Assembly (NCBI GenBank): GCA_028289425.1
Contig: JANQPL010000009.1
Location: 388,961-452,960 of the forward strand
Source: Alphaproteobacteria bacterium
GTDB taxonomy: Bacteria; Pseudomonadota; Alphaproteobacteria; JANQMY01
Direction: 5' to 3'
Length of the DNA stretch: 64,000 nucleotides
Both the position numbers and the translations under genes were made by a program. Positions 2,605-38,764 of the stretch are shown piece by piece (positions within the stretch are counted from its first letter, which is position 1; each line of letters starts with the position of its first letter). The notes below the pieces were generated by a model, which searched no databases, was not told the DNA's origin, and saw only the letters and a list, made by a program, of their open reading frames with translations.

Positions 2605-2641
2605 AAAATAAAAAAAGCCCCGCCGGTTTAGCGGGGCTTTT
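2605..2641 (-). terminator. Rho-independent terminator of the peroxiredoxin gene
   Basis: Read on the minus strand: an 11-bp perfect stem (AAAAGCCCCGC / GCGGGGCTTTT, plus-strand arms 2613-2623 and 2631-2641) with a 7-nt loop, followed by a T-rich run (A-rich on the plus strand from about 2605). It sits 20 bp after the stop codon at 2661. Confidence 0.9.
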
Positions 2642-2660
2642 CTGACATATGACGGCCTGT

Positions 2661-3305
2661 CTAGAGCGACTTCATGACCGCCAGTGTTTCCGCCGGTTCG
2701 GGGCGCCTGGTGTAATCCGGGTTCACTTCCGAATAGCGCACCACGCCTGACGTATCGATGACGAACCGGGCCGGCATGGGCAGCGACCAACTATCGTCTC
2801 CGCTAAATTTTGGCAGTTCGATGCCGCCGCCGGCATAGATCTTCTTCAATTGCGGAGGAAGCACGAATTTTAGGTTCAGTTGATCCGTGTAAGAATTTTC
2901 CGCATCAAACAGAATATCGAAGCCGTAGCCCTTTTCCTGAATGAGCTTGAGATTGATGTCGGGCATTTGCGGGCTGACCGCCACCAGCGATCCGCCAAGC
3001 CCCTTAATGTCTTCGAGAATGTCCTGCAGAGCATCCAGCTCCAGCTTGCAGTACGGTCACCAGGACCCCCGGTAGATTGTCAGCATGAGGGGGCCACGGG
3101 CCAGAAGGTCGGCACTGTCGATCACGTCCCCATTCTGGTTGGGCAGCTTGAACGCCGGCAATGCATCGCCAGTTTTCGTGACCCGTTCCACCTGACCGCT
3201 ATTGGCGAGATCCTCGGTCGCGTCATGCATGATTTTCGCGACCTCGGCCGGGAAGCGTTTCGCCGCTGCCTCTCGCATTTCAGTGAGTTTTTCCGCGAGA
3301 CTCAT
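2661..3305 (-). CDS. Peroxiredoxin-like selenoprotein candidate (AhpC/TSA fold, in-frame TGA at residue 83)
   Basis: Two open segments (3305-3060 and 3056-2661) read in one frame, separated by a single TGA at 3059-3057. Joined, they give a 214-residue AhpC/TSA peroxiredoxin-like protein of normal family length. The TGA falls in YRGSW-[TGA]-PYCKLEL, where relatives have YRG-WCPYC, so it replaces exactly the peroxidatic Cys of the CxxC motif (residues 83 and 86). Both flanks are intact, with no frameshift. This is the pattern of UxxC selenoproteins, and peroxiredoxin-like proteins are among known bacterial selenoprotein families. A SECIS-like hairpin follows, and a selenate-type ABC transporter diverges from it. 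The alternative is a nonsense mutation. Gene finders would split it. SelA, SelB, SelD and tRNA-Sec are not in the window. Confidence 0.78.
3024..3051 (-). promoter_or_regulatory. bSECIS-like stem-loop just downstream of the in-frame TGA
   Basis: In the mRNA, starting 5 nt after the TGA, CTGCA pairs with TGCAG (plus-strand 3047-3051 with 3024-3028), a C is bulged, then AGC pairs with GCT, closing an 11-nt loop with G residues at its second and third positions. The apical loop begins about 14 nt after the TGA, close to the range expected for bacterial SECIS elements, which also carry a bulge and loop G. The fold was drawn by eye, with no energy calculation. Confidence 0.45.
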
Positions 3306-3426
3306 GAGATGTCCTTTCGTGGAAGAGGAACCTCAAACTAGGCGCAACCATGCAGCCATGTCCAGAGCCCGCGCGGTCAAATCACGCGCCACCGTGTTGC
3401 AATTTTTGCTCTCGTAAATGTGATTG

Positions 3427-36274: not shown

Positions 36275-37599
36275 TTACCCGTTTTTGCCGTCGCTATTTT
36301 TCTCAGATGTTCCATCGACACCTTTCCCACGGCATTTCGGGGTAGCGCGTCAAGCACCACCACCTGCCTTGGCACGAGGACAGGGTCTACATGCCGTCGG
36401 AGGAACTCCTTGATTTTTTCTCTTTTACAGCCGTCGCCAACAACAAAAACTGCGGTGCGTGGCGTCATCGCCTTCGAAGACTGAGGTTGAAGAATGAACT
36501 TGCAGTCCTCCACCCCGTCCATACGTAAAAGGACTTGCCTCAAGCCTTCCAGCGATGCGCGCTTTCCCCCGACCTTAACCATGTCGGAACTACGGCCAAT
36601 CAAATCGAAATGCCGTTCGCCCCGTATCGCTATGATATCGTCGAGCTGAACGTCTTCTTTCAAAAACGCCGCTTGAACGAACGTGCGTTCGCCTTCGCTG
36701 CGCAGCGACATGTCATCTCGCAATGCCCACGCGCTGTCTTTTGTTGTCCATCGAGTCGCCACGAATCCAGACTCTGTACATCCGTAGATCTCAAGGATCT
36801 TTGTCGCAAACCGCTTCTCAAAACGCATCGCCATAGCTTGGTCGAGCGGCGCCGTTGCACAAACCGTCAGTTCTACCGGCGGCAGTTCCAGCCGTGTGTC
36901 CAAGAGAGCTCGAATATGCAGCGGCGTCGTAACAAAGCATCGCGGGCCCGCCAAAGACGCCAAGCCCTGAGATATTTCAGCAGGAAAATGGCCACGCTTC
37001 GAAAAAACACGCGCCATCCCCATGAGAGCGGGCATGAGCGACGTCTCGATCCCATAGCTATGCTGGGGAGGCACTGTGGAGAATACGGAGTATTTCGACG
37101 CAACGAACGCCTTCGGGAGGGCCCGCTTAAGGGATTGCCCGCCCGCAACCAAGCCGGCCCAGCTTTTGGAAACAGCAAGAGGATTTCCAGTGGACCCGGA
37201 GGTAAATGCGATCAGTACACGGCGGCTCCCCGGGATTCGGTCAAGAATTTGTTCTAGTTCTTGGCCCGTTTGCGCTGACGGCGCCGTAGCATGATTTGTT
37301 TTTTCGGGCACGCCGATGTCGGTTATCAGCTTGCAACCTTGATATTGACTCTCTAAGTACTCCAGGTGCTTCGTGGTATGGTCGCCAGGAAACAGACTTA
37401 CCTTGTTCGCCATCAAAGCAGCCAAGAAGGCCGTCACAAAGCACCGAAAATCCTCACAAGCGTTAATGACGTAAGAAACGTCACCAAGCGTTGTCGCCAT
37501 GGTTTTGGCGCCGTGAAGGATACTTTCGCGATCCACAAGAGGCGGCGATGGCCCGCTCGCTTTTTCTACCGTCCCGCTGTGCACTCTGTTCGTCCGCAT
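36271..37599 (-). CDS. AMP-dependent ligase, ApeH-like, activates the aryl starter
   Basis: A 442-residue ANL-superfamily adenylating enzyme. Motifs: LIAFTSGSTGNPLAVSKSW (P-loop), EIYGCTESG, and the C-terminal RRNAVGKVS-like segment LPRNAVGKVSMEH with the catalytic Lys. In aryl polyene pathways it loads the aromatic acid (usually 4-hydroxycinnamate or 4-hydroxybenzoate type) on the ACP. The chosen ATG at 37599 shares its A with the stop of the membrane-protein gene (TAATG). No gene for making the aromatic acid is visible in the window. Confidence 0.87.
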   Translation of the reverse strand: MRTNRVHSGTVEKASGPSPPLVDRESILHGAKTMATTLGDVSYVINACEDFRCFVTAFLAALMANKVSLFPGDHTTKHLEYLESQYQGCKLITDIGVPEKTNHATAPSAQTGQELEQILDRIPGSRRVLIAFTSGSTGNPLAVSKSWAGLVAGGQSLKRALPKAFVASKYSVFSTVPPQHSYGIETSLMPALMGMARVFSKRGHFPAEISQGLASLAGPRCFVTTPLHIRALLDTRLELPPVELTVCATAPLDQAMAMRFEKRFATKILEIYGCTESGFVATRWTTKDSAWALRDDMSLRSEGERTFVQAAFLKEDVQLDDIIAIRGERHFDLIGRSSDMVKVGGKRASLEGLRQVLLRMDGVEDCKFILQPQSSKAMTPRTAVFVVGDGCKREKIKEFLRRHVDPVLVPRQVVVLDALPRNAVGKVSMEHLRKIATAKTGK

Positions 37600-38273
37600 T
37601 ACGATTTGTTTGTCCTTCCCGCAGGTCCATTGGCGCTGGTGTGTATCCACGCGCGAGGATCAGACATAATTCTCAAAGTTCGAACGGGGTGTGCCCGCCC
37701 CTCTTTGCCGTGAATCAATGCTCGATAGACATGTTCGCCAAAGAACAGCCCTAGCATGATGGCGGGAGCGCCAAACACGGCAAAAAATGTCCATGTGGCC
37801 AGGCTGGCAACGAACGGCAGTGCGGCCGTCCAAATCAACAAGAGTACGAATAAGATGGTCCAGATGGCCGTTAGCCGACGGGTGTAGGTTGACCAGCCGC
37901 CAGAAACCTGTCCGGCTTCAATTCTTCTAAATCTAGTGATTACAGGTTCCTGCCCGGGCAACAACGACCGGCCGAAATAAAGCGCCAAAAATCCGTAGAG
38001 GAACAAAGGCGGCAAGTATGAAACCAAGTAAGCGAACTCTACGCCGAGCAGCATCGCGACCAACGCACCGGTTAGTATGAGACATCCACTTGCCCACACC
38101 GCCAGCAGGTCTTTTGATGCACCGTCCAACCAGGCAGCGCACAGATTAACCGCGGCAATGGCAACAAGTATGCCAACAAACAGTTCGTGCGCGTCGCGGA
38201 GTGCCGCAACCTGCAGTGGCACAAAAAAGAGGACCGACAAGGCCCTAAGCAAAGACCCCCGACTCCAAGTCAT
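37599..38273 (-). CDS. Integral membrane protein, COG4648/ApeG-like
   Basis: A 224-residue membrane protein with six or more hydrophobic helices, including LLRALSVLFFVPLQVA, LFVGILVAIAAVNLCAAW, LVSYLPPLFLYGFLALYFG and a C-terminal region GLFFGEHVYRALIHG. The size, position (between the ACP and adenylation genes) and segments such as PPLFLYGFLALYFGRSL match the ApeG membrane protein of aryl polyene clusters, whose role is not known. Three bp after the ACP stop. Confidence 0.78.
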   Translation of the reverse strand: MTWSRGSLLRALSVLFFVPLQVAALRDAHELFVGILVAIAAVNLCAAWLDGASKDLLAVWASGCLILTGALVAMLLGVEFAYLVSYLPPLFLYGFLALYFGRSLLPGQEPVITRFRRIEAGQVSGGWSTYTRRLTAIWTILFVLLLIWTAALPFVASLATWTFFAVFGAPAIMLGLFFGEHVYRALIHGKEGRAHPVRTLRIMSDPRAWIHTSANGPAGRTNKS

Positions 38274-38276
38274 CGA

Positions 38277-38552
38277 TCAAGCGTTAGTTGCTTCGCCAGC
38301 CCGCGCACGGTTGACAAAAGCCGTCAACGAACGAACGGACGCGAAGATTTCTACATTCGCCTCGTCGTCCGCTAGGATTTCCACGCCATATCGCTTCGCG
38401 AGTTCCAGTGATAGCTCTAGAGCATCGATGGAATCCAGCGCCAACCCTTCGTTGAACAACGCTTCGTCAAAGTCGATTTCCGACGGAGATTCCTCCAACA
38501 GAAGGGTTTCCACAATCAGTTCAGCAATCTCTATGGGTTGTATTTCGGCCAT
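38277..38552 (-). CDS. Acyl carrier protein of the aryl polyene synthase
   Basis: A 91-residue ACP. Phosphopantetheine attachment is Ser41 in GLALDSIDALEL. The acidic composition is typical. Aryl polyene clusters usually have two ACPs (ApeE and ApeF); only this one is here. First gene of the leftward core operon; the 212 bp upstream (38553-38764) hold no gene and should carry a promoter, unless the halogenase transcript reads through. Confidence 0.9.
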   Translation of the reverse strand: MAEIQPIEIAELIVETLLLEESPSEIDFDEALFNEGLALDSIDALELSLELAKRYGVEILADDEANVEIFASVRSLTAFVNRARAGEATNA

Positions 38553-38764
38553 GTCGCCCCCCGACGAACGAAGTATCTATTTCCATTATTCTGAGCCACA
38601 TCAGTTGGACATGCAACAGTCGCATGAGACGCCAACGGCTCAACCAGGGCTCACTGATGGCACACTTATTCGGTCGGCCGGCCGGTCAGATTCCGCTGGT
38701 CAACACTCAGCTTTGACGCGAGTCATTAGCCGAGGGAACGACAAGCCTGACCAAAGGCCAAATG

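Follow-up and report, generated by a model that had tools for sequence, protein, structure and literature searches.

A peroxiredoxin-like alphaproteobacterial gene with an in-frame UGA that is predicted to encode selenocysteine

Introduction

Does a TGA at the active site of a peroxiredoxin (Prx)-like gene mark a selenoprotein or a broken gene? The question is raised by a locus in a 64,000-nt stretch of alphaproteobacterial DNA (hereafter the window; G000:C19:388961-452960), in which the gene occupies positions 2661-3305 (G000:C19:391624-392265). The initial annotation of this gene took the TGA to be read as selenocysteine (Sec) and noted that Prx-like UxxC proteins occur among bacterial selenoproteins. 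The literature agrees on the latter point: proteins with UXXC in place of TXXU were described as 'Prx-like' from the Sargasso Sea (PMC1088965) and as 'Prx-like 1' (PF00578, UxxC) from the GOS data (PMC2398784), and the class is also called 'Prx-like thiol:disulfide oxidoreductase' (PMC13188914, PMC1794560). Here, the continuity of the gene, its homology, the Sec/Cys column, the Sec machinery and its co-occurrence with the TGA, selection past the UGA and synonymous constraint on a hairpin were computed. The explanation that we consider best, with a probability of about 0.93 for the whole, is that the gene encodes a Prx-like UxxC selenoprotein in which Sec83 would be inserted by SelA, SelB, SelD and tRNA-Sec and would serve thiol-redox chemistry.

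Results

Reading-frame translation of the window placed the gene on the minus strand (3305..2661), where it runs for 214 codons from an ATG (3305..3303) to a TAG (2663..2661); the forward-strand reading of 2661-3305 was rejected, as it is not the gene. The single in-frame TGA is codon 83 (3059..3057), in the motif IYRGSW-U-PYCKLEL, in which a UxxC with Sec first is present as UPYC. The segments on either side of the TGA are parts of one AhpC-TSA protein (Pfam PF00578, residues 46-191, E = 1.5e-21), with a score of 77 bits against a cut-off of 26. On the same strand, a Shine-Dalgarno-like AAAGGA, read from the sequence, lies 6 nt upstream of the ATG (3312..3317), and a strong intrinsic terminator with a 14-bp stem and a T-rich tail lies at 2611..2643. 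The initial annotation had described one gene broken only by a TGA, and this is borne out, the strand, which it left unstated, being minus. It was also right in expecting two fragments from standard gene callers: a plain ORF listing splits the gene into products of 82 aa (3305..3057) and 107 aa (2984..2661, GTG start). Ordinary ORF calling would split or lose the gene, which is caught by no NCBIfam model.

The TGA occupies exactly codon 83 in 16 orthologues from 15 genomes of the class (16/16 Sec forms), and all 99 Cys-form homologues have a Cys codon at this position (TGC in 75, TGT in 24), which is the first Cys of the WCPYC motif, as had been proposed. Residue 83 is never other than Cys or Sec, whereas Cys86 (TGC, 3048..3050, minus strand) is replaced by Gly in two of the 99 Cys forms. 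Sec83 is accordingly the most probable catalytic nucleophile, though not at the classical peroxidatic position of peroxiredoxins. In profile alignments to solved structures, residue 83 coincides with the Thr/Ser of the TxxC motif in peroxiredoxins (5epf, 2ywn and 2cx3) and with the first of the two CxxC cysteines in ResA, whereas the peroxidatic Cys of the peroxiredoxins is matched by Cys86, the putative resolving partner of Sec83. The strict peroxiredoxin pattern PxxxTxxC, with the peroxidatic Cys/Sec last, is thus not matched, residue 83 being at the Thr/Ser position. The conserved active-site Arg of peroxiredoxins is absent from the protein; in the alignments with 2ywn and 3hjp, both involving weak second domains, its place is taken by Pro178 (2772..2774, minus strand), which is nearly invariant among homologues and aligns with a Pro in ResA, at the thioredoxin-type (cis-)Pro position. 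The earlier placement of the TGA at the peroxidatic cysteine is therefore the one part of the initial annotation that finds no support. An AlphaFold model (pLDDT 93.4) has the BCP/PrxQ peroxiredoxins as its nearest folds, followed by ResA. As judged from these comparisons, the active site is thioredoxin-like and the scaffold peroxiredoxin-like.

The protein may alternatively be a strict Sec peroxidase, in which Sec83 would itself be peroxidatic, being oxidised to a selenenic acid that is then resolved by Cys86. The AhpC-TSA family and the Prx fold agree with this, as do the annotation of the Cys relatives as 'peroxiredoxin-like family protein' and the invariance of residue 83 beside an occasional Gly at 86, which makes residue 83 catalytic; however, that residue lies on the Thr/Ser of TxxC and off the peroxidatic Cys, Pro178 stands in place of the Prx Arg as in ResA, and the literature names the class for thiol:disulfide oxidoreduction, so that we hold a strict peroxidase to be conceivable but somewhat doubtful. 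Chemistry of the thiol/selenol oxidoreductase type is quite likely, and we lean slightly towards a disulfide reductase rather than a dedicated peroxidase.

The genes selA, selB and selD and a tRNA-Sec with a UCA anticodon were all found on the contig that carries the Prx-like gene. The NCBIfam scores of selA (580.9 bits), selB (299.8) and selD (368.3) are all above their cut-offs, the tRNA-Sec (C19:381372-381461) scores 83.2 bits, and about 5.6 kb separate the end of selB (C19:384159-386012) from the Prx-like gene. Both selB and tRNA-Sec, on whose presence the initial annotation had made its reading depend, are thus near the gene. tRNA-Sec is present in each of the 15 TGA genomes but in only 4 of the 20 that are Cys-only (Fisher p = 1.9e-6, a value that is only indicative because the genomes are related). 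The selD gene has an in-frame TGA of its own at the active-site position (L009:5597-5599, plus strand; AGUAGK), so SelD itself is likely a selenoprotein; a plain ORF call places its start downstream of this TGA.

Folding and synonymous constraint point to a candidate bacterial SECIS (bSECIS) hairpin 3′ of the UGA (3021..3054, minus strand). Its core stem, GAGC(UGGAU)GCUC, lies at 3041-3029 with the apical loop at 3037-3033; the loop begins 19 nt past the UGA and has a G at position 2, and the 45-nt element has an MFE of -12.0 kcal/mol. These values satisfy every published bSECIS limit (loop 3-9 nt, stem 4-16 bp, spacing 16-37 nt, MFE <= -7.5, and a G in the first two loop bases; PMC13188914). 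Sec forms have a synonymous-codon identity of 0.73 across codons 84-94 versus 0.42 elsewhere, the corresponding values for alphaproteobacterial Cys forms being 0.53 and 0.44. GCT stands at codon 92 in 15/16 Sec forms versus 4/99 Cys forms, and codons 89-90 are GAG and CTG in all 16 Sec forms versus 39 and 49, respectively, of the 99 Cys forms. Shared ancestry partly confounds the synonymous constraint. Measured against synonymous shuffles, stability has a mean z of -1.29 in Sec forms versus -0.35 in Cys forms (Mann-Whitney p = 7e-4), and the window hairpin is more stable than its shuffles (45 nt, p 0.013). No excess stability was seen for the window hairpin when 54 nt were compared with dinucleotide shuffles (z 0.04), or in some of the Sec orthologues (G357, G057, G067 and one G297 copy). 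In its registered position the helix is paired in 87.5% of cells, compared with 30-48% when slid; changes within it are one-sided only, with no two-sided covariation. An Rfam scan around the gene gave only sub-threshold chance matches.

A UGA in this position might also act as a selenium sensor, giving Sec when selenium is present and truncation or Cys insertion when it is not. Truncation at codon 82 would take away the active site, but no sign of regulation beyond ordinary Sec dependence is seen in the sequence, and we consider a sensor very unlikely.

The Sec forms are otherwise intact: apart from the TGA, none of the 16 orthologues is interrupted by a stop or a frameshift. One of them, at 85% identity, comes from an independent same-genus assembly, so that a sequencing error is very unlikely. 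For the pair formed by the window gene and this same-genus orthologue, dN/dS (NG86) is 0.115/2.18 before the TGA and 0.097/1.22 after it, and the other pairs with computable dS show the same pattern; strong purifying selection acts on the codons downstream of the TGA. A single branch (support 86/56, present in 90% of bootstrap trees) separates the Sec forms from all others in a 62-protein tree; one Sec/Cys switch therefore suffices, the tree giving no direction. In one genome (G297, L128) the Sec-form gene is duplicated in tandem, with the TGA in both copies.

It follows from the recurrence of the TGA in all 16 orthologues, the intact frames, the selection past the TGA and the presence of tRNA-Sec in every TGA genome that a pseudogene or sequencing error, i.e., an ordinary Cys-form gene with an acquired TGA, is extremely improbable, even though a change of TGC or TGT to TGA takes a single base and accidents of this kind seem to have befallen two Cys-form relatives. 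These relatives, in L028 (G035) and L146 (G313), each carry one in-frame TAG, at W173 and Y78, respectively. Both genomes have a tRNA-Sec, and that of G313, the one checked, has the normal UCA anticodon; we judge the two TAGs to be sequencing error or decay. Reassignment of TGA to one of the standard amino acids (Trp, for instance) throughout the genome would also keep frames open under readthrough but has a negligible probability, since the 40 long ORFs of the window end in TGA (15), TAG (13) and TAA (12), which means that TGA is not reassigned, the homologues carry Cys rather than Trp at codon 83, and a dedicated tRNA-Sec is encoded together with SelB.

Elsewhere in the window, the next in-frame TGA candidates by codon usage score about half as high as the Prx-like gene and were rejected, one being an ordinary gene boundary and the other two having no coding support. 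At 37599-38576 (minus strand), the TGA that closes an ACP-like gene is followed by a gene whose start is in the same frame, an ordinary boundary that mimics an in-frame TGA.

Two more selenoprotein genes adjoin the tRNA-Sec (G000:C19:379189-381201, minus strand; L009:3190-5202). One encodes an AhpD-related protein with CFYU (NF041238, 422 bits, cut-off 175) and the other a second Prx-like protein, with HWUPYC, which looks membrane-anchored; neighbouring Prx-like and AhpD-like selenoprotein genes have been noted earlier (including PMC2398784). In G092, a genome placed in a different family from that of the window, one locus holds a 528-aa protein, AhpD(U), Prx-like(U), tRNA-Sec, selD, selA, selB and the orthologue of the window's Prx-like gene, the last about 270 bp after selB and convergent with it. 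The 528-aa protein is conserved, has a thioredoxin-like N-terminus and no Pfam match, and lies with the Sec locus in both genomes (L009:1599-3185 and L186:6496-8076, both minus strand). Selenoprotein candidates in the window's genome number at least nine: six of the AhpC/TSA type, two of the AhpD type, and SelD. Four further AhpC-TSA genes have an active-site TGA (G000 C19:370757, C14:54119, C3:577347 and C15:58281, with the motifs VWUPPC, SWUGC, PYUGC and FWUPPC, respectively), and a second NF041238 AhpD-type gene with an in-frame TGA lies at G000:C1:185729-186781 (minus strand). No TGA was found in formate-dehydrogenase-like genes of this genome.

Discussion

The Sec/Cys column, the nearby machinery, the co-occurrence with tRNA-Sec, the selection downstream and the hairpin all support the original proposal that the TGA is read as Sec, and UGA codon 83 is very probably so decoded; in nearly all of the computations the gene behaves as a genuine selenoprotein gene. 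We infer the Sec insertion itself, the substrate and the reductant. In the proposed mechanism, SelA would make Sec on tRNA-Sec(UCA) with selenophosphate supplied by SelD, and SelB would bring the Sec-tRNA to codon 83, aided by the bSECIS hairpin just 3′ of it. From its place at the N-terminal end of the first active-site helix, Sec83 would then attack a disulfide or a peroxide; the intermediate may be resolved by Cys86 as an Se-S bond, and thioredoxin or a small thiol may serve for recycling. The 214-residue protein is probably cytoplasmic.

On the basis of domain and motif, the gene fits a known class, the Prx-like (PF00578, UxxC) selenoproteins, and would represent no new phenomenon. It shares with the GOS and Sargasso Sea proteins the AhpC-TSA domain, a UxxC with Sec first, abundant Cys homologues and a bSECIS after the UGA, but unlike them it belongs to an alphaproteobacterial group with a helical N-terminus of about 40 residues. 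This group passes no NCBIfam cut-off; for the SelL-related redox protein model (NF040769), the window protein reaches 24.3 bits versus the 120 needed. The Cys-form 'peroxiredoxin-like family protein' of Burkholderia, Cupriavidus, Bradyrhizobium and Rhizobium has 42-49% full-length identity to it and the same WCPYC site; however, residue 83 is Cys in these proteins and the codons after it are little constrained. Sec peroxiredoxins of the PrxU type (TxxU) have the AhpC-TSA fold in common with the window protein, in which Sec lies three residues earlier, at the Thr position, and the Prx Arg is lacking; the NCBIfam PrxU model did not match it at E <= 0.001, and matched its HWUPYC paralogue weakly. 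Thiol:disulfide oxidoreductases of the ResA/TlpA type are alike in that the first Cys of CxxC corresponds to residue 83 and the cis-Pro to Pro178. Unlike them, the window protein has no signal peptide or membrane anchor apparent by eye, its C-terminal region is Prx-like, and additional helices are present at its N-terminus.

The block of AhpD(CFYU), Prx-like(U), tRNA-Sec, selD(U), selA, selB and the window's Prx-like(U) gene is common to genomes of two families. It might, as a speculative and rather doubtful proposal, function as one unit, a thiol-redox pathway dependent on selenium by which alphaproteobacteria that lack a selenocysteine formate dehydrogenase maintain the Sec trait. In the window's genome, the Sec trait is carried by thiol-redox proteins and not by formate dehydrogenase. 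With the gene described here, a known selenoprotein class gains a well-supported alphaproteobacterial clade, and its matched Sec and Cys orthologues allow testing of why Sec is retained.
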